Assembly (NCBI GenBank): GCA_903879915.1 | Contig: CAIRNJ010000055.1 | Coordinates: 1 to 64,000 of the forward strand | Direction of reading: 5' to 3' | Origin: an uncultured Elusimicrobia bacterium | GTDB lineage: Bacteria; Elusimicrobiota; Elusimicrobia; Elusimicrobiales; UBA9959 | DNA length: 64,000 nucleotides | In this document: in pieces, positions 1,596 through 29,795 of the stretch | Layout: every line of letters begins with the position of its first letter | How positions within the stretch are numbered: the first letter of the stretch is position 1 | Position numbers and translations under genes: made by a program | Notes under the pieces: generated by a model | Seen by the model: the letters and a program-made list of their open reading frames with translations, nothing else | What the model was told of the DNA's origin: nothing | Databases searched by the model: none

Positions 1596-2528
1596 TTAGT
1601 TTACGGCCACCTTGGCCGCGTCCTTAAGATAACACGCCAGCGCTATAGAGTGAAGTTTGGTGACCGGGGAATCCGTCCTGGACGGCAATATCACCGGGAT
1701 ATTCGAACCCGCCAGCAGCGTGGCCGATTTCATGCCCGCGCCGAAGAAAGACAGGCACTTGTAGACCGGGTTCGCGCTGTCCAGGTCGGGGAACAGGGCT
1801 ATGTCCGTATCGCCGGGGACGCTGGCGCCCTTGATGCCTTTTTCGGCGGCCAGTTCCTTGGAGAACGAGATATACACGTCGTAAGGCCCCTCCACCACGC
1901 AGTTCTTTATGGAACCCTCCCTGTTCATTTTCACGAGGGCTTCCGCGTCCAGCGTGCTGGGGATACTGGGGTTCACCTTCTCCACGGGGCAGATTACGGA
2001 CACTTTCGGCGTTTCCACGCCCAGCATCCGCATCATGTCCACGGCGTTGCGCACGATCTTGGCCTTCTGCTCCAGCGTGGGGCTGATCATGATGGCCGCG
2101 TCGGTGACGGCGAAAAGCTTGTGGTAGTTGGCCAGCTCGAACAGCACGAAATGGCTGAGCACGGTGCCTTCCGCCACGGCGCCCACTTCCTTGCGCAGGA
2201 TGGCCTTCATGTAGAACTTGGTGTCCACCAGGCCTTTCACCAGGAAATCCCCTTTGCCGGCCTTCACCAGGTCCACGGCCAGGTTGCACATCTCCGCGTA
2301 GTCCGACTTGTCTACCAGCTCGAAAATATCCAGCTTAAGCCCCACCTTGGCGGCCATGGCTTCCACCTGAGCTTTGGGCCCGATAAGGATGCCGCCTGAA
2401 ATTATATTGTTGTCCACGCCCATCTTGCAGGCGGTAAGCACCTCGTCGTTATTGGCGCCCGGCACCACGATGCGGTTGGTCTTGCCGCGCACCAGCCCCA
2501 GCAGTTCGTCAAAGTTCTTGAATTTCAT
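1596..2528 (-). CDS. ptb: Phosphate butyryltransferase / phosphate acyltransferase
   Basis: A 310-residue PTA/PTB-family enzyme, close to the usual ~300. It converts an acyl-CoA (butyryl-CoA or a branched short-chain acyl-CoA) and phosphate to acyl phosphate and CoA in the cytoplasm. Family features include the early [11 protein letters not shown] segment, the [16 protein letters not shown] segment, [15 protein letters not shown] and the C-terminal [19 protein letters not shown] lies before the ATG. It follows buk by 33 nt on the same strand, the standard pairing in which Buk uses the acyl phosphate to make ATP. The exact acyl chain cannot be read from the sequence. A phosphate acetyltransferase role is possible but less likely beside a butyrate kinase. 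Confidence 0.93.
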
Positions 2529-2561
2529 TTATCCTCCGGAGTCGTTCAGATTGCCGCAAAT

Positions 2562-3680
2562 TCAATATTTCTTTATTTTCGACGGGTGCCTGAGCGCTAT
2601 CTCGGCCGCCGCGCGCAGCGCCGTCATCTCGTCGCCGCCGGGGTAGGAGAGCACCTGCGCTATCCAGCCCACGCGCCGCTTGATCTCGGGCACCAGCACC
2701 TTGTCGTAGGCGAGCCCCCCGGTCAGCACTATCGCGTCCACCCTGCCTTCCAGCACGCAGGCCATCGCGCCTATCTCCTTGCAGATCTGGTAGCCCATCG
2801 CGTCCACCGCCTCGCGGGCCTCTTCGCGGGTCATCTTGTCGGGGTCTATGCCGGAGCCGGGCTTGATCTCTCCGGTCAGGATATATTTCTCCAGCGCCAC
2901 GCAGTCGGACGTGCCGGTGTAAGCCACCAGGCCGCCGCGGCCCTTGAGCTTGAGCATCATATCCTGCTGGCTGTACTTGCCGCTGAAGCACATCTTCACC
3001 AGGCCGCCGGCCGGCACGCCGCCGGAGCGCTGCGGGGTGAACGGCCCGTCGCCGTTGAGCGCGTTGTTGACGTCTATGACGCGCCCGCCCATGTGCGCCC
3101 CCACCGAGATGCCGCCGCCGCCGTGCATGACGATCAGCCGGCATTCCTCGTACGGCTTGCCGAGCTGGCGCGCCGCGTGGCGCGCGCAGCGCTTCTGGTT
3201 CAGCGCGTGAAAAATGGAGATGCGCGGGTTCTCCGGCATGCCGGAGTAGCGCGCGAGCGGCAGCATCTCGTCGACCACGACGGGATCGGCGATGAAAGCT
3301 TTTATGCCGTTGGCGCCGGCGATGTCGTGCGCTATGATGCCGCCGAGGTTGGAGGAATGGTCGCCCAGCACGCCCTCTTTCAGGTCGGCCAGCAGCGCGT
3401 CGTCCACCGCGTAGACGCCGCCCTCGATGGGCTTCACCAGACCGCCGCGGCCGATGACCGCGTGCAGCTCCTTCACGTCCACCCCGTGTTCCTTCAGCGC
3501 CTCCAGCGCCATGCGCTTGCGCAGCTCGAACTGGGCGGTTATCTTCTCTAGTTCGTAAGGCTTCAGGTCTTCGGGGCTGTAGCGGACGGTCTTATGGAAG
3601 ACCTCAGCCTCGCCGCGGAAATAGCTTACTTCGTCCGAGGTCGACCCCGGGTTTATGACGAGTATGTTATAGTCGGCCAT
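2562..3680 (-). CDS. buk: Butyrate kinase
   Basis: A 372-residue member of the acetate/butyrate kinase (ASKHA) family, slightly longer than the usual ~355. It interconverts butyryl phosphate + ADP and butyrate + ATP. Visible signatures are the N-terminal phosphate loop INPGSTSDEVS, the MHGGGGISVGAHMGGRVID motif and the following NALNGDGPFTPQRSGGVP. GGGGAG precedes the ATG. It sits 8 nt after a DUF4185 gene and 33 nt before ptb, so the genes are almost surely co-transcribed. Together with ptb it gives substrate-level ATP from a short-chain acyl-CoA, or activates scavenged acids in reverse. Confidence 0.95.
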   Translation of the reverse strand: MADYNILVINPGSTSDEVSYFRGEAEVFHKTVRYSPEDLKPYELEKITAQFELRKRMALEALKEHGVDVKELHAVIGRGGLVKPIEGGVYAVDDALLADLKEGVLGDHSSNLGGIIAHDIAGANGIKAFIADPVVVDEMLPLARYSGMPENPRISIFHALNQKRCARHAARQLGKPYEECRLIVMHGGGGISVGAHMGGRVIDVNNALNGDGPFTPQRSGGVPAGGLVKMCFSGKYSQQDMMLKLKGRGGLVAYTGTSDCVALEKYILTGEIKPGSGIDPDKMTREEAREAVDAMGYQICKEIGAMACVLEGRVDAIVLTGGLAYDKVLVPEIKRRVGWIAQVLSYPGGDEMTALRAAAEIALRHPSKIKKY

Positions 3681-17340: not shown

Positions 17341-19983
17341 TCAGGCCTTGATCCTTTTGTCTATGACCTTGCGGATCTTGCCGGTGCGCTGGACGCGCTC
17401 TATGGTGCCGGGCTTCAGGGGCTCTATCTCCGGGCGGTCCAGCCAGTGCATGCGCACGCTTTCGCGCAGGTCTTCGCAGTGGGTCTCTATCTCGCGCCAC
17501 AGCAGGTCGGCCAGTTCGCCGGCCCGCGCCAGCGCCGCCGGGTCCTTCACTTCCACGCGTATCGCCAGAGTATCCTTGTGGCCTTTCTTGGCGATCACCA
17601 CCTGGAAATTGAAACTCAGGTCCGGCACACGGCCCAGCGCGTTCTGGATGTCGTTGACGAACAGATGCGCCCCGCCGACATGGATGCGGTCGTCGCAGCG
17701 GCCGAGTATCTCGAACATCGGCTCCTTCCTGCCGCAGGCGCACGGCTTCAGGAGCCACCGCCCCAGGTCGCCTACCCGGTAGCGGATCACCGGCATGTGC
17801 TTCTTGGAAAGACAGGTCACCACCAGTTCGCCCACCTCGCCCTTCTTCACCGGGGCCATGGTGTCCTGGTCCACGAACTCTATGAACTGGCTGAAGGCGA
17901 AAAGATGATGCTGCCCCTTCACGCACGACGGGCACTGAAAGCCGATCACGCCGGCGTCCGCCGTGGCGTACCCGGCCGAACGAACATCCACGCCGGGGAA
18001 CACGCCCTTAAAGAACTTGATCATTTCCAGCCCGACATATTCACCGCCGTAAAATATCTTTTCGACGCGGAGCTTATACTTGCCCGGGTTGGCCTTCACA
18101 TATTCCGCCAGCTTCACCAGGAAGGAGGGCAGGCCGATCACCGCCGTCACCCTGAAATCCTCCAGGTACTGCACGATGTTCTCCAGCGGCAGGTTGCTGC
18201 CCACCGGCACCGAAATGGCCTTGGTATAGGAGATGGCCTTCTCCACCGACAGCCAGCTCGACCAGAGGTTCCCGGCGATGAACAGGTTCGCTATCGTATC
18301 CTTTTCATTGAGGCCGGCCGCCTCGAGCGTAAAAGCCAGCATCCGGCAGGTATGGTCGTACTCGTGCTGGTCGTAAAAAATATACTTCGGCTGGCCGGTG
18401 GAGCCGCCGCTGGCGAAATAAATGCCGCGCTGCACCTTGGAGGTGAGCAGGTCCGCGCTGTCGGGCGGCGTGTTCTCCAGCACGTGGTGCTTCTCCAGGA
18501 AAGGCACCTTCGCGAAATCCTCGATGTTCGTTATCCGGGGCACGTCCTTGAAATGCCGGCCGTAGAAAGGGCTGCGGCGCCTGGCATGGTCCACCAGTTC
18601 GCTGAGCCGGTCCAGCTGGGAGGGCTTCTCCTCTATGGGCACCCAGTTCACCAGCGACATCATCGGGAAGATGCCGTCGTGCGGGGAGCCGTTGGCCTCC
18701 TCCAGCATTTTGCCCAGCTTCACCACGCGGGCGATCCCCGCCGGGGCCAGCGTTTCCAGCACTTTCTTTCGCTCTATGGAGCCGCCCACGCCCACGGTCT
18801 GGATGTAGCCGCGCATAGGCATCAGCTTCTCTTTTACTTCCTCTATGCTCTCCACGGTCTTAACATACAACACGCGGTTGAGCGGCGAAACTCTGTAAAC
18901 CGGGTCTTTTTCGTAGATCACGGTCCAGTCCGTCTTCGGCGCGGAACACTCGTAGCTCCCCGCGCCCAGCGCCGCGTCCACGCGGGCAAGCTGCCGCGCC
19001 TTGGTTATCTCCACCTGCTCGTCGGGGGACAGCCTGCCCTGCGGCAGTTCCCTGGCGAACCGTGCGAAATGCACCTTCGCTTCTTTCAGGAAAGAAGCCG
19101 CCAGCGCCTTGTGCTTGCCGGCCGGCGCTATCAGGTAAAGCGTATGCAGCGAGGAGCAGGCCGCCTGGTCCCACAGCGAAGCGTCCAGCGCCGCGCGGCG
19201 GGCCACCTCGGCCATCCCTTCGTTCTTAACGCAGCTCTCGAATACCACGCCCACGCTGGTCTTGGGGCCGAAACCCTCCACGCGCACGTCGATTGGGGCT
19301 ATCTTGCGGTAGCTCTGCACCGCTTCGTACCCGCCCCAGACGAACACCGTGTTCACGTTCTTCAGCGCCGCCTCTTCCAGGCCCTGGCTGCCGCCCTTCC
19401 AGGTCACCACGGCCACGCACTTGGAAAGCACGCCCTTAGTATCCGCCTCTTTCAGCGCGTCCATGAACAGGTTCATGAACCGCGAGCCCGACGAGGAAAG
19501 CTTTATGATATTCACGTTCTTGGTGAGCAGCCCTATCACCATGGAATCCAGGATGCCCAGAAAAACGTTGCCGGCGCCCACGTGCAGCACCACGCCCTTG
19601 GGCAGCGCCCGCAGCAGGCCTTCGTAGCCGCGGCGCTCCACCGGGGCCTCCAGCGCGTAGGGCAGGAACAGCTCCATGTTCATGCGCTTGACCAGGGCGT
19701 GCTTGTCGAGTATCTCCGGTATCACGTCCAGGCTTTTGTCTATCACCGGCTCGGAGAAGGTTATGTGCTCTTTAAGGTGCTCCAGCGCCGCTTTGCGGTA
19801 TTTGGTGCCCGGTGCGAACAGCTTGCCGGCCTTGGCCAGCGTGTCCGTTATGTATTCTCGCGTCACCCCGCGCAGCAGCTCGCGCGCTGCCTGCGCTTTC
19901 CGGCCCAGCTCTTCCAGCTCGGCGGGGGTCCAGGCGGTCTTGTCCAGGGTTTTTCCGAATAAATAGGTGTTGTGTATTTTCAT
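17341..19983 (-). CDS. Fusion of LuxC-type acyl-CoA reductase and PaaK/LuxE-type AMP-forming ligase
   Basis: An 880-residue two-domain protein. Residues ~1-440 are a LuxC (acyl-CoA reductase, aldehyde dehydrogenase fold) domain: LPKGVVLHVGAGNVFLG, KLSSSGSRFMNLF, and SLWDQAACSSLHTLYL with Cys276 as the presumed thioester-forming residue. Residues ~455-880 are an adenylating domain of the phenylacetate-CoA ligase class, with the phosphate loop FASGGSTGQPKYIF (about 523-536), a later HMPVIRYRVGDLGRW and ILGRCDDRIHVGGAHLF, and two Cys/His clusters (CPSCVKGQHH, CACGRKEP). The expected chemistry is activation of a carboxylate and NAD(P)H-dependent reduction to an aldehyde. Its ATG overlaps the LuxE stop by four bases. 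LuxC and LuxE are usually separate, so the fused ligase is notable. Substrate unknown. Confidence 0.88.
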   Translation of the reverse strand: MKIHNTYLFGKTLDKTAWTPAELEELGRKAQAARELLRGVTREYITDTLAKAGKLFAPGTKYRKAALEHLKEHITFSEPVIDKSLDVIPEILDKHALVKRMNMELFLPYALEAPVERRGYEGLLRALPKGVVLHVGAGNVFLGILDSMVIGLLTKNVNIIKLSSSGSRFMNLFMDALKEADTKGVLSKCVAVVTWKGGSQGLEEAALKNVNTVFVWGGYEAVQSYRKIAPIDVRVEGFGPKTSVGVVFESCVKNEGMAEVARRAALDASLWDQAACSSLHTLYLIAPAGKHKALAASFLKEAKVHFARFARELPQGRLSPDEQVEITKARQLARVDAALGAGSYECSAPKTDWTVIYEKDPVYRVSPLNRVLYVKTVESIEEVKEKLMPMRGYIQTVGVGGSIERKKVLETLAPAGIARVVKLGKMLEEANGSPHDGIFPMMSLVNWVPIEEKPSQLDRLSELVDHARRRSPFYGRHFKDVPRITNIEDFAKVPFLEKHHVLENTPPDSADLLTSKVQRGIYFASGGSTGQPKYIFYDQHEYDHTCRMLAFTLEAAGLNEKDTIANLFIAGNLWSSWLSVEKAISYTKAISVPVGSNLPLENIVQYLEDFRVTAVIGLPSFLVKLAEYVKANPGKYKLRVEKIFYGGEYVGLEMIKFFKGVFPGVDVRSAGYATADAGVIGFQCPSCVKGQHHLFAFSQFIEFVDQDTMAPVKKGEVGELVVTCLSKKHMPVIRYRVGDLGRWLLKPCACGRKEPMFEILGRCDDRIHVGGAHLFVNDIQNALGRVPDLSFNFQVVIAKKGHKDTLAIRVEVKDPAALARAGELADLLWREIETHCEDLRESVRMHWLDRPEIEPLKPGTIERVQRTGKIRKVIDKRIKA

Positions 19984-21149
19984 AACATCGTAGCGGCCGA
20001 GATGGCGCAGCCTTTTAGTTTAGTAACTCCGGCCCGGCCTTTTATTTCCAGCAGCGGGCCCGGCAGGCCGCAGGCGCATTTGCGGCGCAGCAGCCCGAAG
20101 TCCGACGACAGTACCGACAGCGACGGGTAGCTGGTAAGGTACGGCGTGATGAACTGCAGCAGGCCGGGCTGGTCGTAGCCCAGCGGCTCGAGCGTCCCCG
20201 GATGGCGGGCTATCACGCGGCCGTAGTTGGGCACGTGGAAGTTCCCCAGTTTGCAGTCCACGTAAGGCACGCCGTGTTCCACCATGCCGAACAGGTCGCG
20301 CACGTTCTCCACCGGGATGCCCAGGTCGTCGGCCAGTATCTTGCGGTAAACTTTCTTATCCATGGCCTCGTCGGCCAGCGTTTTCCAGCCGCCGCCGGTC
20401 ACTACGCTCGAGCCGGGATTGAGCCGCGGGCTGCGGCCGAACCGCTTCTTGAACTCCTCGGTCAGTTTCAGCGCGAAAGCGGGGAAGCCCACCAGCCGCA
20501 CCAGGCTCTGCGAAGTTTCGAATTTCTTCATGGCCGATACCGCGCCGTCTATGTCGAAGTAGAAATCGTTCTTCGACCTGCTCCAGCGGAAGGTGTAGAA
20601 GATCTCGCCCTGTTTGGTGAAGCCGGCCAGCAGTTTGTCCGTCCAGGCCGTGCCGAGGTCTTTCGCCACTTCGGGGTCGTAGGTGAAGCAGATATAATCG
20701 TGCGCGTGTTCCAGGTCGGTGAGGCCCAGCCCCTCGAACACCTTCCAGGCCATGCGGCGCACCCGCATCAGGGAACCCTTGTCGAGCTGCATGCGGCTGC
20801 GCTGGCCGGAAGTGCCGCTGGATTTCAGTTCCAGTACGATCTTGGAATATGGCAGCGTGGTCAGGTCGCGCTCTTTGAGCGCCGACACGAACAGGAAGGG
20901 GATATTGGCGATATCCCACTCGGTCTTCACCGAGGCGGGGTCGAACCCTTCCGCCTTGTACAGCGCCTTGAGCACCGGGGAGCGCGCGCCCTGGAAAGCC
21001 AGCGCCGCGCGCATGGCGGCGCAGAAAGCTTTCGAGGTCTCGGGGGAATACCTGAAAGCCGGGGTTTCGAACAGCGCGTCCACCGCGGCCCGGCTTTTAA
21101 GCGGTCTATACACCGGGGGAAGACGGTCTTCTACGGAAAGGTCTGCCAT
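19980..21149 (-). CDS. luxE: LuxE-type acyl-protein synthetase
   Basis: A 389-residue LuxE-family protein, near the usual ~370-380. The adenylate-forming loop is LELKSSGTSGQRSRMQ (about 107-120). Other landmarks are VTGGGWKTL, VRDLFGMVEHGVPYVDC and a C-terminal Cys motif, RRKCACGLPGP. In bioluminescent bacteria LuxE activates a fatty acid with ATP, holds it as an acyl-enzyme and passes it to LuxC for reduction. Here it is translationally coupled (4-bp ATGA overlap) to the LuxC-ligase fusion and follows the GNAT gene by 23 nt. GGAGGAG precedes its ATG. No luxA, luxB or luxD is in the window, so light production is not implied. Confidence 0.9.
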   Translation of the reverse strand: MADLSVEDRLPPVYRPLKSRAAVDALFETPAFRYSPETSKAFCAAMRAALAFQGARSPVLKALYKAEGFDPASVKTEWDIANIPFLFVSALKERDLTTLPYSKIVLELKSSGTSGQRSRMQLDKGSLMRVRRMAWKVFEGLGLTDLEHAHDYICFTYDPEVAKDLGTAWTDKLLAGFTKQGEIFYTFRWSRSKNDFYFDIDGAVSAMKKFETSQSLVRLVGFPAFALKLTEEFKKRFGRSPRLNPGSSVVTGGGWKTLADEAMDKKVYRKILADDLGIPVENVRDLFGMVEHGVPYVDCKLGNFHVPNYGRVIARHPGTLEPLGYDQPGLLQFITPYLTSYPSLSVLSSDFGLLRRKCACGLPGPLLEIKGRAGVTKLKGCAISAATML

Positions 21150-21172
21150 GATTTTTCGCTCCTCCGGAGCCG

Positions 21173-22369
21173 TTACCTGGGCTCTGTCTTGAACGCCAGC
21201 TCAATATAGTTCTCCCGCCAAAGCTTCAGATATTCGCGCAGGAAGTTCTTATACAGCGAGATTATCTTCACGTTGCGGAAGTCGAGGATGTCGAACGTGC
21301 GCGAGAACACCACGCAGTCGTAGCGCCTGCCGCCCATGCGCTTGGCGCAGGGGAAATAAGCGCTCGGGATGTAGCGCGCGTCCAGCGCGTCGCGCTGTAT
21401 GGCCGGGGAATAGGAGTCGATTATAACTTCAACGTAGGCCAGGTCCATCTGGCTGACCTTCTGCGCCACGCTCTCCAGCACCACGGCGAAGCTTTTTTCG
21501 TTGGTCACGCCGCCCACTATCACGCTGTACTTGTCCTTCAGGTTGTAGGTAAGGTACACCTCGGTGCCCTGGTCGGGGGTTATCAGGATCAGGTTCGGCT
21601 CGTGGAACGGCATCACTATGTGCTCGAAGAAGCTGTTGTGCTTCGTTTTGTGGTACCTGTTGCGCACGAACTCCGGCGCCGTGATGGCCTCGAAGTTCAA
21701 CAGCGGGATCTTGATCTTATGGTCGCTGTAAAGGCCCTTCGCGTCCTTTACAATGGCCTTATCCATGGTTATCTGCCGGCGGACTATCTCGTAAAAAGGC
21801 AGTACTTCCGGTATGATGACGGGCTTGCGGCGGCGGCACTGCATGGCCCTGTCGGTAAAATAGGCCGTGAGGCAGTGCGTTTCGTTGTCCTGCACCTTGT
21901 GCGTGTTCGGAAAAATGCCGAGCTTTATGAAGCCCAGGCTTTCGGTAAGCCTTTGCGGCGCGGAAGAGGCCGTGCGGGTGGTGGCGTAAACCAGGTCCAC
22001 CAGGTTGCGCTTCTTGGTTATGTCGTCGAGCACCAGCTTCATCATGGTGTAGGCCAGGTTCAGCTTACGGTACTCCTGGCTGACCACGGCCCCAAAGGCC
22101 TTGGAATTCCTGTACTTGTTGTCCAGCGCGTACACCAGGCTGCCCACTATACGCCCTTTGGCCTCGGCCACCAGCCAGTAATACTCGTCGTCCTCTATGG
22201 CGCTGCGCATCTTCTCCTTGTCCGTAACCATGGAGATGGAGTAGCTGCCGCCGTAAACTTCGGCGTAAAGCATCTGGATGCGCCGCATGTCCTGCGTCTT
22301 GGCCAGGCGCACTGTTATGTCGCCCTGGCCCTCGCTCACTATGATCTTGTCCAATATTCTTACCGCCAT
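21173..22369 (-). CDS. GNAT-fold acyltransferase with an uncharacterised C-terminal domain
   Basis: A 398-residue protein. Residues ~17-175 form a GNAT N-acetyltransferase domain: ITVRLAKTQDMRRIQMLYAEVYGG, then WLVAEAKGRIVGSLVY, then AFGAVVSQEYRKLNLAYTMM, where the acetyl-CoA loop would be, and a LTESLGFIKLGIFPN strand-turn. The C-terminal half (about 200-398) is unrecognised; it contains LILITPDQGTEVYL and IPSAYFPCAKRMGGRRYDCVVF and may be a second degenerate GNAT-like domain. It is the first gene of the LuxE/LuxC operon, so it probably transfers or senses the acyl intermediate made by that pair. The ATG has only a weak Shine-Dalgarno site (AAGGGG). Confidence 0.8.
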   Translation of the reverse strand: MAVRILDKIIVSEGQGDITVRLAKTQDMRRIQMLYAEVYGGSYSISMVTDKEKMRSAIEDDEYYWLVAEAKGRIVGSLVYALDNKYRNSKAFGAVVSQEYRKLNLAYTMMKLVLDDITKKRNLVDLVYATTRTASSAPQRLTESLGFIKLGIFPNTHKVQDNETHCLTAYFTDRAMQCRRRKPVIIPEVLPFYEIVRRQITMDKAIVKDAKGLYSDHKIKIPLLNFEAITAPEFVRNRYHKTKHNSFFEHIVMPFHEPNLILITPDQGTEVYLTYNLKDKYSVIVGGVTNEKSFAVVLESVAQKVSQMDLAYVEVIIDSYSPAIQRDALDARYIPSAYFPCAKRMGGRRYDCVVFSRTFDILDFRNVKIISLYKNFLREYLKLWRENYIELAFKTEPR

Positions 22370-22515: not shown

Positions 22516-23289
22516 ATGAAAACACACAAGCTTTTACTGGCGGCGGCAGCGGCGCTCTCCGCCTGCGGCTGCGCCTCTTTTACTTCGGGCGACGTGCTGG
22601 TGGAAAAAGAAACGGCGCAGGCCATGTTCGACGATCATACCCTCGCCCCCTTCGCCGATATACAGTTGTCCTGGATAAATTACCCTTACCGCTCCCCTAC
22701 CGATTCCATCGCCGGAGAGACCACCGTGGACGACAAAGGCCGGTTCACGGCGCAGCAGGCTGCGCCCGTGCAGGTCCCCCCGGAGGACCTGGTCAGGCTG
22801 GCGAAGCGGGCGCGCGGGATCTTCTCGGAAGCGGGGCTTTACGACAAGCAGAAAGGCCGCGGCACGCTGCGCCTGGCGCTCACCACGGTGAACCGCTGGA
22901 CCTACGGCGAACTTTTTCGGTCCTATCTGGTGGACACCGGCTTTATTTTCCTTATCCCCTCTTCGCTGCGGGTCAATTACCTGCTCAGCGCTGAATTCGA
23001 GACTTCCTCCGGTACGGTGAAAGTGGAAACGCTGGGGCAGAACAAGACCACTTTCCACCTGCTGCTGGCGCCCCTTTACCCGCTGTTCGCTCCCGGCGGC
23101 AGGGAAACGGGCCTGCTCAAGCAGATGCTCTGGCGCTGCGCCACCGACACTTACTCCCGCCTGAAGCACGAAGGCCGGACCGTAAAAGAATCCCCCGCGG
23201 CCGCCGCGCCCCCGGCGCAGGCCGGCCCGGAGAAAACAGAGCCGCCGGCGCGGGGTCCCGTGCCGGCGGAAGAAACTCCCGACGATTAA
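22516..23289 (+). CDS. Predicted lipoprotein of unknown function (257 aa)
   Basis: The N-terminus has a lipobox (LLLAAAAALSAC, Cys17), so the mature protein should be anchored in a membrane facing the periplasm. The middle is a mixed alpha/beta region with RGTLRLALTTVNRWTYGELF and SLRVNYLLSAEFETSSGTVKVETLG, possibly strands of a lipocalin- or LptE-like fold, but I do not recognise the family. The last ~45 residues are Pro/Ala/Glu-rich and disordered-looking. AGGA lies 10 nt before the ATG. It is divergent from the LuxC operon and its stop is 3 nt from the metG stop on the other strand. Confidence 0.75.
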   Translation: MKTHKLLLAAAAALSACGCASFTSGDVLVEKETAQAMFDDHTLAPFADIQLSWINYPYRSPTDSIAGETTVDDKGRFTAQQAAPVQVPPEDLVRLAKRARGIFSEAGLYDKQKGRGTLRLALTTVNRWTYGELFRSYLVDTGFIFLIPSSLRVNYLLSAEFETSSGTVKVETLGQNKTTFHLLLAPLYPLFAPGGRETGLLKQMLWRCATDTYSRLKHEGRTVKESPAAAAPPAQAGPEKTEPPARGPVPAEETPDD

Positions 23290-25857: not shown

Positions 25858-26313
25858 TCAGGGCGCGGCGGTTACGGGCTTCTCCCCGGCCGGCTTGGGC
25901 GTTTCCTCCGCGGCCGGCTTTTCGGACGGGAGCTTTTCCAGCGCCTCTTTGGCGTCCTGCAGGTAAACGCTCTCGGGGTTGCCGCTGACGAACTTCTCCA
26001 GCGCGGCTTTGGCGCCCTTGTTGTCCCCGTCCACCGCCAGCTGTACGGCGTCGGCCAGCTGCTTGCGCTCGGCCTCCAGCTTTTTCTGCGCGGCTTCGGA
26101 AACCCCTCCCTTCCAGTACAGGGCATGGGCGTCCGCGCCCTGCTTGGCCCCGCGCACGGCGGCCACGGCCGAGATCCTGTTCTTCGAGGTCAGTTTTTTC
26201 TCCACCTTGGCCCTGAGCCCTTTCAGCAGGCTCTCGTACCAGCCGCCGGAATCCGCCGCGTACGCGGCGTTGACGGAGAACAGCAGCGCCAGCGTTAAAA
26301 GTATTTTTTTCAT
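25858..26313 (-). CDS. Small exported protein with a Pro-rich tail (151 aa)
   Basis: It has a clean signal peptide (KKILLTLALLFSVNAAYA). The mature part is mostly helical and charged (about 50-115), with KKLEAERKQLADAVQLAVDGDNKGAKAALEKFVSGNPESVYLQDAKEAL resembling one or two TPR/Sel1-like helices. The end is a Pro/Glu/Lys-rich tail. AGAGGGT is the Shine-Dalgarno site. It starts 8 nt after the stop of the 1157-residue TPR protein, so the two are co-transcribed and may work together in the periplasm. The family is not recognised. Confidence 0.72.
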   Translation of the reverse strand: MKKILLTLALLFSVNAAYAADSGGWYESLLKGLRAKVEKKLTSKNRISAVAAVRGAKQGADAHALYWKGGVSEAAQKKLEAERKQLADAVQLAVDGDNKGAKAALEKFVSGNPESVYLQDAKEALEKLPSEKPAAEETPKPAGEKPVTAAP

Positions 26314-26321
26314 ATACCCTC

Positions 26322-29300
26322 TTATTTCTGCAGTTTATCGCCGATGTTCTTCACCGCGGGGTCCAGTTTGGCGGCCTTGTCGGCGAACGTCTTCACGTCG
26401 TCCTTTTTGCCCTGTTTGTCGGCGGTCCGCGCCAGGTTCAGCCAGATCTCGGCGTCGTAGGGGTCGGCCTTGGCCGCGGCGAAATACTTTTCGTTCGCCG
26501 CCTCGTACCTGCCCTGCTGGTACGCCATGTTGCCCAGGTTGTTGAGCGCGGCAGCGTTGAAAGGCTCTTTCTCCAGCACTTTGGCGAACGACCTCTCCGC
26601 GTCGGCGGTCTCGCCCTGCTTGGCGGCCAGTATGCCCAGGTTAAGGTTGGCGTCCAGGTCGTCGGGGTTCTCCAGCAGCACGCGCCCGAAGTATTCCTTG
26701 AAGTAATTGTAGCGCGCCTTCAGCAGGGCGGCCACGCTGCCCTGCACCCTGGCCAGGAATCTGTCCCTGTCGGGATAGCTCTCGTCCGTGGTCGTTTCGG
26801 GCAGCGTCACCGGCTCGAACTCGGCCCAGGATTTCCTGACCTCTATCACGTGCACGTCCGCTTCGTTCTGACGGTAGAAGTCGGCCGCGTGCTTGATGGC
26901 GTCGTAAAGGTCCTTGCCCACCATGGTGACCTCGAGCCCCACCCAGTAAGTGTTCTCGTACTTTATAAGGTACTCGGCCGGCAGCCCCGCGTCGCGCGGG
27001 TCCGTGGCGCCGGTGTCGAACATCATGGAAATGTGGGCCGGGTAATCCAGCAGGGCCGTGCGCACGCCCGACGCCTCGAAGATGGCCGCGAACAGCGCGG
27101 TCAGGTCGTCGCAGTCCCCGCTCTTGAGCTTCAGCGTGGTGCGCGGGAACTGCACCGTGTCCAGCACGAGTTCCTTGGTGGACTTGAGCACCGAGTACGG
27201 GTTCACCGGGTCGGCCAGGTAGCTGAGGCCCTTCTCTCCCAGCGCCTCCCAGACCATCAGCGCGGTAACGATGTTCTCGTTGAGGTCGGAGGCCGCCTCC
27301 TCGGTCTTGCTCTTTTCGTTGAGCGCGAAGCGGCTGAAGCCGAACACCGGGGTGTCCTTCGGGGTTATGAAGTTGGCCAGCCGGGCCGGCTTGTCCCAGA
27401 CTATGGCGTTCTTCGAAAGCATCTTTATGGGCCTATTGAGCGTGGCGGTTTTCTCCGCCCCGTCCTGGTACCAGGTTACCGTGAGCTGGCACTGCACGGG
27501 TGTATCCTCGGTGATGCCCAGCACCCGGTTATTGAGCGTGGCCATGATATCCACCTCGGCCTTGGAATGCGGGGCGATGGAGCCCTCCACTATGGCGTCC
27601 GTGGGGAAGTCCATAAAATCCCGCAGGAAGAAGGAGACCTTCACGTTGCTGAATTCGTTGTTCGTGTTGTTCTGTATGCCGATGCGGCCCAGCGGATTTT
27701 TAAGGTAATGCTTATAGTTCGCCGAGAACACGAAGTTCAGCTCTCCGGGGAGTATTTCCATCGGGGCCAGGTTCTTATTGTCCGCCGCCGGTTTGGCCTT
27801 GGGGGCCTCAGGGCCCTGGAAATAGACCACGGCGGGGGCGGACAGGCCGCCCCTGACCCCGCTCACCGAAACGCCGGCCGCGTAGTAATAATAGGTGGTA
27901 TCCGGAGCCAGCCCGGTATCGGACAGCTTAGTTTCCGTAGAGGCCCCTACCTCCTGAAGCTCGCCTTTTTCGCCGGCCGCCCTGTAAACCTTGACCCCGC
28001 TGGTCCAGGCGTTGGGCCGCGCGGTCCAGGACAGGTCAACTCTGGTCTTGCCGGCCTCCGCCTTCAGCGCCGCGGGCGCCTCGGGCAGATAGCTGATATC
28101 GAAAGCAACTATCCGCGCGTTCTCCAGGTCGGAGATATAGACGCGGTCGTTGCGGAACGCCAGGTTCTGCGGCGTCCAGAGCTCGCGCTCGCCGCGGCCC
28201 TTGGCGAAGAAGCTCGCCGTGAATTTGCCGGCGGCGTCGAAGATCTTCACGTTGTAGCTGCCCTTGTCCAGGACATAGAAAAAACCTTTATTGTCGTAGA
28301 TCAGCGCGGCCGGGTCCTGCAGGCTCCCGGAGTCGTCCCACGCGCGCAGGAATTTCCCCATGGCGTCGGTCACTATCACCTTCTTCAGCACGGAGTCCAG
28401 GATGTAGACGTTCTTGTTCTCGTCGCAGCGCACCGCCACCGGGCTCATCAGCGTGATATCCCCGAACACCGGGCCCGCGGAGAACAGGAACATGCCGTCG
28501 GGACTGAACGCCTTTATTCTCTTGTTCTTGTTGTCGGCCACATAGATGTTGCCTTTGGAGTTAACGGCCACCGAGACGGGGTTCCTGAACTGACCTTCGT
28601 CCGAGCCGCTTTCGCCGAACATGTTGGAATAAGTGCCGTCGGGATTGAAGATCTGCACGCGGTCGTTGCCGGAATCCGCCACGTAGATCATGCCTTTGGG
28701 ACCCACGAAGATGCCGCGCGGGTTCTTCACCTGGCCCTGCGCCGAGCCGGCCTTGACCAGCGTTCTTTTAGTATCGCTGGAGAACAGCACGATCTCCCTG
28801 GTCTCCGGCAGGTAGGCTACGATGCTGTTGTCCGGCGTCACGGCGAAAACTTCGGCTTTGAACGGATATTTCGCGGCCGGCCCTTTTACGGTGAACCGGT
28901 CCAGCACCGGCGCCCGCTCCAGCCTTACGCCGCCCTCGGCGCTCTCCAGCCGTATGGACACCACCTTCTTGTTCTCCTCGTCGCACAGGTACAGGATGCC
29001 GGCCTCGTCTATGGCGATGTCGGTCAGCTTCTTGAACTCGCTCTTGCCTTTGCCCCGGGTGCCGAAAGTCCCTATCACCTCGCCCGAGCCGGCCATTTCC
29101 CGCACTTTGCCCTCTTTGGCGTTTATGGTGTAAATGGTCCCGTTCAGGTCCGGGGTGGCCCCGTCGTTGGCCATGGGGTATTCCTTAATGAGCCTGCCCG
29201 TCCGGTCATACTTCTGCAGCAGGGCCTTGCCCGGGTCGGAGACGTACACGTCCCCGGAATAGCTCAGCTCTATCTTGGCCGGTTCGAGCTTCGTCAGCCC

Positions 29301-29795
29301 GTCGGCCCTGCCCGCCGGGAAGCCGTAGAGATAGACGCCGTCGGAGTTGAAAACGTCCACGCGCGAATTGCCGGTATTGGAAACGTACACCCTGTCGTCC
29401 GGCCCGTAAGCCACGCCGCGCGGCCCGGCGAGCTGCCCGGGCGCCTCGCCTTCCCCCGCGAAAGCCCACAGCGCCCTGCCTTCGGCGTCGAACACGACTA
29501 TCCGTGAATTGCCGGTGTCCGCCACGTAGAGGCGGCCGCCGCCGAACGCCAGGGCCTGGGGCCCTTTCAGGCCGCCTTCGGCTTTCCTGAGCAGTTTCCC
29601 GTCCGCGTCGAAAATAAAGATGCAGTTGGCCTTGGCGTCCGCCACGTAGGTGCGGCCCTGCGCCACGGCAACGGCCGAGAGCTTCATGAAAGCCGGGTTC
29701 AGCATCTGGCTCCTGAACTCTATTTTTTCATAAGCGCCGGCGCCGGCCGCCGAAAAAGCCAGTACTGCGAAAAAGATAAAAGCGCGATTGGACAT
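26322..29795 (-). CDS. 1157-aa exported NHL-propeller / FN3 / transglutaminase-like / TPR protein
   Basis: A signal peptide (NRAFIFFAVLAFSAAGAGA) is followed by two NHL-repeat beta-propellers (about 35-275 and 300-585). Repeats have the form G-x-(I/L)-Y-V-A-D-x-x-N-x-R-(I/V), e.g. GRLYVADTGNSRIVVFD, MIYVADSGNDRVQIF and NIYVADNKNKRIKAF. An FN3 domain follows (about 590-670, APDTTYYYYAAGVSVSGVRG), then an Ig-like region (~700-840), a transglutaminase-like domain (~880-1010) with KSGDCDDLTALFAAIFEASG supplying Cys and AHISMMF supplying His, and C-terminal TPRs (~1045-1140). GGAGG precedes the ATG. The combination suggests a large periplasmic or surface scaffold that binds polymers and processes or crosslinks protein; each domain is recognised, the joint function is not. 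Confidence 0.85.
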   Translation of the reverse strand: MSNRAFIFFAVLAFSAAGAGAYEKIEFRSQMLNPAFMKLSAVAVAQGRTYVADAKANCIFIFDADGKLLRKAEGGLKGPQALAFGGGRLYVADTGNSRIVVFDAEGRALWAFAGEGEAPGQLAGPRGVAYGPDDRVYVSNTGNSRVDVFNSDGVYLYGFPAGRADGLTKLEPAKIELSYSGDVYVSDPGKALLQKYDRTGRLIKEYPMANDGATPDLNGTIYTINAKEGKVREMAGSGEVIGTFGTRGKGKSEFKKLTDIAIDEAGILYLCDEENKKVVSIRLESAEGGVRLERAPVLDRFTVKGPAAKYPFKAEVFAVTPDNSIVAYLPETREIVLFSSDTKRTLVKAGSAQGQVKNPRGIFVGPKGMIYVADSGNDRVQIFNPDGTYSNMFGESGSDEGQFRNPVSVAVNSKGNIYVADNKNKRIKAFSPDGMFLFSAGPVFGDITLMSPVAVRCDENKNVYILDSVLKKVIVTDAMGKFLRAWDDSGSLQDPAALIYDNKGFFYVLDKGSYNVKIFDAAGKFTASFFAKGRGERELWTPQNLAFRNDRVYISDLENARIVAFDISYLPEAPAALKAEAGKTRVDLSWTARPNAWTSGVKVYRAAGEKGELQEVGASTETKLSDTGLAPDTTYYYYAAGVSVSGVRGGLSAPAVVYFQGPEAPKAKPAADNKNLAPMEILPGELNFVFSANYKHYLKNPLGRIGIQNNTNNEFSNVKVSFFLRDFMDFPTDAIVEGSIAPHSKAEVDIMATLNNRVLGITEDTPVQCQLTVTWYQDGAEKTATLNRPIKMLSKNAIVWDKPARLANFITPKDTPVFGFSRFALNEKSKTEEAASDLNENIVTALMVWEALGEKGLSYLADPVNPYSVLKSTKELVLDTVQFPRTTLKLKSGDCDDLTALFAAIFEASGVRTALLDYPAHISMMFDTGATDPRDAGLPAEYLIKYENTYWVGLEVTMVGKDLYDAIKHAADFYRQNEADVHVIEVRKSWAEFEPVTLPETTTDESYPDRDRFLARVQGSVAALLKARYNYFKEYFGRVLLENPDDLDANLNLGILAAKQGETADAERSFAKVLEKEPFNAAALNNLGNMAYQQGRYEAANEKYFAAAKADPYDAEIWLNLARTADKQGKKDDVKTFADKAAKLDPAVKNIGDKLQK

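Follow-up and report, generated by a model that had tools for sequence, protein, structure and literature searches.

What do enzymes of the lux fatty acid reductase do in a genome that has no luciferase? This question is raised by a stretch of 64,000 nucleotides (the window hereafter; positions 1 to 64,000 of contig CAIRNJ010000055.1, assembly GCA_903879915.1) from an uncultured Elusimicrobia bacterium, in which three minus-strand genes follow one another head to tail: a gene for a GNAT-type protein (21173-22369), a gene for the acyl-protein synthetase LuxE (19980-21149), and a gene for a LuxC reductase fused to a PaaK-like adenylating ligase (17341-19983). The data presented below support the conclusion that GNAT, LuxE and the LuxC-PaaK fusion form one unit, and this three-gene set with its fusion recurs in six phylum-level bacterial groups and on plasmids.

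Three genes that stay together

An earlier note on this DNA, made from the sequence alone, had given the positions of the three open reading frames, the gap between the first two and the overlap between the last two, and every coordinate was borne out. The GNAT gene ends at 21173 and luxE begins at 21149, leaving an intergenic gap of 23 nt that contains GGAGG, a ribosome-binding-like site ahead of luxE (21161-21165, minus strand), and an ATGA is common to the luxE stop and the fusion start. A scan for promoters and terminators returned a site count not above that of shuffled sequence. The source genome is 3.4 Mb in size and carries a single LuxC; its closest named relatives are metagenome-assembled genomes of Elusimicrobia. 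The earlier note had also claimed that the LuxAB luciferase is absent, in agreement with our genome-wide search: the luciferase family PF00296 had no match anywhere in this 99% complete genome, and the same search matched 10 of 14 control genomes.

To follow the association of the three genes, we gathered 144 distinct fused genes from Elusimicrobiota, Riflebacteria, two further phyla, Streptomyces plasmids and Salmonella plasmids. The loci were selected by the fusion alone, and LuxE and GNAT were therefore not selected for; the GNAT profiles, however, were trained on such loci. LuxE lies directly upstream of the fusion in 137 of the 144 cases, and in six of the seven exceptions the upstream sequence is shorter than 3 kb. 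For 131 of the 144 fusions a GNAT from the same families was found on the same strand and within 12 kb, and the order seen in the window, GNAT-LuxE-fusion, is kept in at least 104. Among 61 relatives, each of the three proteins is present in 35 genomes, where the three genes adjoin, barring contig ends or, in a few, a few hundred to about 3,000 intervening bases; the sister family of small genomes is devoid of all three proteins. At the level of the phylum (295 genomes), the fusion occurs in 60 genomes and the GNAT in 63, with both in 59, the fusion only in 1, the GNAT only in 4 and neither in 231 (Fisher p ~5e-56, not corrected for relatedness). As an independent control, searching 72,556 plasmid records with the window GNAT alone gave four matches, all of them Streptomyces-type and with the fusion; in the three that were examined LuxE sits between GNAT and fusion, and the fourth match is another record for S. 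cattleyicolor. Some relative of LuxC, mostly unfused, is found in 55 of the same 72,556 records. Co-occurrence of the three genes, which the earlier note had proposed to be one unit, thus holds at the species, family, phylum and between-phylum levels.

Domain architecture and catalytic residues

In Pfam, the fusion protein (880 aa) has LuxC over residues 45-447 (E 5e-70), followed by AMP-binding over 525-722 and AMP-binding_C_2 over 771-877. Its LuxC reductase domain (residues 1-450; 18634-19983, minus strand like all the operon features below) scores 236.8 bits against PF05893, whose curated cut-off is 21, and aligns to the solved LuxC 7xc6_A (E 2e-20). The putative nucleophile Cys276 (codon 19156-19158) corresponds to the cysteine of DQQACFS in 7xc6_A and does not vary in any of the 146 fused proteins; conservation was counted over these 146 sequences and over 75 LuxE and 75 GNAT sequences. 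The remainder of the chain (residues 451-880; 17344-18633) resembles the phenylacetate-CoA ligase 4r1l (E 3e-37) and contains both features expected of an adenylate-forming (ANL) enzyme, namely the ATP loop SGGSTGQPK (residues 525-533; 18385-18411), with G526 and G527 in 146/146 and K533 in 135/146 sequences, and an A10-type lysine, Lys869 (codon 17377-17379), present in all 143 sequences that have a residue there. These PaaK catalytic residues are almost fully conserved among the fusions of the six phylum-level groups. The fused domain shares its fold, ATP loop and C-terminal lysine with PaaK-type phenylacetate-CoA ligases including AjiA1 and FevW/BagE, but it is joined to a reductase and falls far below the PaaK equivalog cut-off (TIGR02155, 152 bits versus 646), so that we call it PaaK-like and not PaaK. 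The fusion also recalls carboxylic acid reductases (CAR), in which acid adenylation and reduction take place in one polypeptide; unlike them, it has no carrier-protein (PP-binding) domain by Pfam scan, it uses LuxC in place of an SDR-type thioester reductase, and its reductase is N-terminal.

That the fusion could be an assembly join was considered and ruled out, the protein being found at full length in many independent genomes and phyla, including most of 31 other genomes of the same genus.

LuxE (389 aa) scores 128.4 bits against PF04443 (E 4e-37; curated cut-off 24.9) and matches the solved LuxE 7xc6_E (E 9e-19). Its Cys381 (codon 20007-20009, in KGCA), the predicted acyl-acceptor, is a cysteine in 75 of 75 sequences and matches that of KGCSLS in 7xc6_E. 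The 7xc6 cysteines with which Cys276 and Cys381 align are the acyl-carrying ones of the lux enzymes. Since Cys276, the ATP-loop glycines, Lys869 and Cys381 are all conserved, the LuxC, PaaK and LuxE units look catalytically intact. The earlier note's reading of a LuxC reductase (Cys276) fused to a PaaK-like domain, giving the operon two acyl-activating units and one reductase, is confirmed by the Pfam domains and by the recurrence of the fusion in relatives and other phyla.

The operon's first gene encodes a protein of 398 aa in which Acetyltransf_1 covers residues 32-147 only (32.5 bits, cut-off 20.7). Its AlphaFold model (pLDDT 88, pTM 0.88) has the GNAT element order repeated in both halves. 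The N-terminal domain (residues 17-170; 21860-22321) was matched by Foldseek to ArsN/RimI (E 3e-10) and to the SpeG fold too. The intact pyrophosphate loop R/QxxGxG/A is absent: RxxGxG is changed to RKLNLA in the window protein, and G, D and N are mixed at the key position in relatives. The C-terminal half (residues 222-360; 21290-21706), delimited by the DSSP element order of the model, contains P254, P258, E314 and D351, which are invariant in 75/75 sequences. As hhalign between the two halves gave a weak match (probability 21%, E 0.001), the assignment of a second GNAT-like fold leans on the model, and the protein is best called a predicted tandem-GNAT. The description of the C-terminal half as an unknown domain, in the earlier note's terms unrecognised, is replaced accordingly by that of a GNAT-like half in the model. 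Two GNAT-type halves per chain, as in the operon GNAT, also make up the tandem-GNAT proteins mycothiol synthase MshD and FemX; compared with these, the operon GNAT has an altered acyl-CoA loop and several invariant second-half residues, and matches neither above cut-off in sequence.

A possible acid-reduction route and its alternatives

By the membership tests applied, the operon is not a lux bioluminescence system, nor a CAR, nor a PaaK. Its components nonetheless resemble the lux LuxC-LuxE(-LuxD) fatty acid reductase (7xc6) in the adjacency of the genes, the LuxE acyl-cysteine and the LuxC nucleophile cysteine. It departs from that system in having no luciferase and no LuxD (the LuxD acyl transferase domain is absent from the three operon genes and the adjacent open reading frames scanned with Pfam), in the fusion of LuxC to a PaaK-like ligase, and in the tandem-GNAT gene that stands first. 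We somewhat favor the interpretation that the operon is a self-contained unit for carboxylic-acid reduction and acyl transfer, dependent on ATP and NAD(P)H, a chemistry that we infer by analogy with the LuxCE and PaaK families.

In such a unit, and following the chemistry established for LuxE and LuxC, LuxE would adenylate a carboxylic acid with ATP to give an acyl-AMP; the acyl group, carried on Cys381, would then pass to Cys276 of the LuxC domain, and its NAD(P)H-dependent reduction there would yield an aldehyde. The fused PaaK-like domain would activate the same acid or a second one as acyl-AMP or acyl-CoA, and this acyl group could feed either the GNAT or, in cis, LuxC. One role for the tandem-GNAT might be acyl transfer onto an amine or an alcohol; another would be to release or accept the acyl chain in the manner of LuxD in lux operons. 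The two activating units could serve two acids, or provide two entry routes for one acid. We offer the substrate, the product, the role of the GNAT and the reason for the two activating units as guesses; the product is probably a small metabolite or lipid with an aldehyde-derived group.

The sharing of work between the two activating units can be seen differently: LuxC may serve mainly the PaaK-like domain fused to it, taking an acid through acyl-CoA to aldehyde on one chain, while LuxE handles a different acid and the operon joins the two acyl groups. This is a sub-case of the acid-reduction unit, from which it differs in who feeds LuxC, and we hold it possible but doubtful. Clusters differ in how many PaaK-type ligases they have, from one to two, while LuxE stays single, and the PaaK relatives FevW/BagE were proposed to condense two building blocks (PMC6692506). 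However, nearly every fusion has LuxE upstream and the acyl-cysteine of LuxE is conserved, which fits acyl transfer from LuxE to LuxC.

An ordinary lightless fatty acid reductase, in which the fatty aldehyde or alcohol from LuxE and LuxC would go into ether lipids or waxes, with the PaaK-like domain and GNAT as accessories, would share its LuxC and LuxE families and their catalytic cysteines with the operon, as the lux enzyme does. Yet neither the PaaK-like domain nor the GNAT looks accessory, because the PaaK residues are almost fully conserved across phyla and the fusion keeps its GNAT; moreover, no LuxD-like gene is in the operon, and we consider this explanation improbable. With regard to waxes, the wax-ester family PF03007 had no match in the genome, and none in the control set either.

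A link to the cell surface has precedents. Non-luminous LuxE/LuxC pairs were reported in such loci: a role in envelope or flagellin decoration was put forward both for RfbN (tetronate) in Vibrio cholerae and for luxE-luxC in the flagellar glycosylation islands of Aeromonas (PMC4772473, PMC7874193). An aldehyde or reduced acid made by the operon would then be a building block for lipopolysaccharide, glycan or flagellin modification. These systems share LuxE/LuxC chemistry in non-luminous bacteria with the operon, and a conserved divergent lipoprotein-like gene (22516-23289, plus strand) adjoins the operon and keeps its place across the family. In Riflebacteria, a LuxE-LuxC fusion that is RfbN-like lies beside a glycosyltransferase (locus L223, 2323-5466, plus strand), but with a different domain order from the fusion studied here. 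In the RfbN-type and Aeromonas systems the fused ligase is LuxE and the partners are an acyl carrier protein, a ketoreductase and a glycosyltransferase, whereas in the operon a PaaK-type ligase is fused, LuxE is separate and the partner is a GNAT. In the loci examined we recognised neither glycosyltransferases nor sugar genes among the constant neighbors of the operon, and surface decoration appears unlikely to be its function.

Several points weigh against the acid-reduction and acyl-transfer unit that we favor. The GNAT has a degraded acetyl-CoA loop (RKLNLA) and may therefore not use acyl-CoA. The substrates of PaaK and LuxE are not readable from their sequences. No aldehyde user (aminotransferase, alcohol dehydrogenase or decarbonylase) was recognised as a constant neighbor, and the genome-level co-occurrence counts are uncorrected for shared ancestry.

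Range, mobility and meaning

Three layouts recur. The first is that of the window, GNAT-LuxE-fusion. The second is GLN-PaaK-GNAT2-LuxE-fusion-MFS-GNAT, where GLN is a secreted-looking, glutaminase-like protein that matches PF18626 weakly and GNAT2, of 490 aa, has a stretch that is weakly GNAT-like. The third combines PaaK, MFS, GNAT, LuxE and fusion in varying order, with PaaK often directly after the fusion. An extended cluster with GLN, PaaK, the 490-aa GNAT-like protein, MFS and a second GNAT is present at loci L032 (7132-17445), L098, L101, L140 and L146, and looks like a biosynthesis-export cluster; the model of its GNAT protein was of low confidence (pLDDT 67) and was not used. Related clusters contain additional PaaK copies, an MFS carrier, which may export the product, and more GNAT-type proteins; the variants with PaaK and MFS are found in other phyla and in Streptomyces, and they favor a metabolite pathway over a housekeeping lipid step.

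Beyond the Elusimicrobiota, 33 of 40 Riflebacteria genomes match the fusion profile at the search threshold, a count that includes a few partial or single-domain matches, and 85 of 291 genomes in the phylum of the metagenome-assembled genome LLD_190 match at least part of it; the fusion is also found in a few genomes of one further phylum. On plasmids, it occurs in Streptomyces and Streptantibioticus and on two Salmonella IncF plasmids. The latter (L249 and L252; CP053580 and CP054717) are conjugative and carry LuxE, LuxC-PaaK and PaaK, annotated merely as AMP-binding and acyl-protein synthase, and on CP054717 a GNAT gene is annotated next to the cluster. No copy of this Salmonella-type cluster was present in the E. 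coli collection searched.

We built quick trees, which have long branches. In the LuxC tree the fusion domains mostly stand apart from classical unfused LuxC (7xc6, Priestia, Azospirillum), with one deep, weakly placed fusion, and three unfused LuxC of low-GC Riflebacteria that have LuxE (L218, L219, L220) nest inside the fused group, probably through loss of the PaaK part. In the PaaK tree the fusion domains are separate from neighboring single PaaKs. The LuxC fusion may have one origin and have spread between phyla. Because the Streptomyces sequences group with Elusimicrobiota and the Salmonella one with the LLD_190 phylum, the trees suggest transfer between phyla.

Other genes of the window were recorded. 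Farther along than the lipoprotein-like gene, a small secreted protein and an NHL/TPR protein (25858-29795, minus strand) hold a conserved position beside the operon in the family. At 1596-3680 (minus strand), a phosphate acetyl/butyryl transferase gene adjoins an acetate-kinase-family (butyrate-kinase-like) gene, a possible short acyl source without link to the operon. Near the window end lies a gene for a small zeta-toxin-family kinase (PF06414; 61494-62075, plus strand).

No literature on this cluster was found among open-licence papers. The component families are known, and they combine here into a LuxCE acid reductase variant that is new. Because the set with its fused enzyme recurs in six phylum-level groups and on plasmids, it probably belongs to an unstudied pathway to some aldehyde-derived compound. 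Going further, we tentatively suggest that GNAT, LuxE and LuxC-PaaK could be the core of an undescribed, very widespread assembly line free of non-ribosomal peptide and polyketide synthases, in which two acids would be activated, one of them reduced to an aldehyde, and both joined by the two-domain GNAT to yield exported aldehyde-derived metabolites; such a line would be almost universal within one family of Elusimicrobiota, frequent in Riflebacteria and plasmid-mobile.

LuxCE reductases are textbook bioluminescence enzymes, and here a non-luminous form with a fused ligase and a GNAT prevails in whole lineages. The copies on Streptomyces and Salmonella plasmids make the pathway testable in culturable hosts. 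The operon would provide a compact natural acid reductase on a LuxC scaffold, not that of CAR, and would give the conserved C-terminal half of this tandem-GNAT family its first function.

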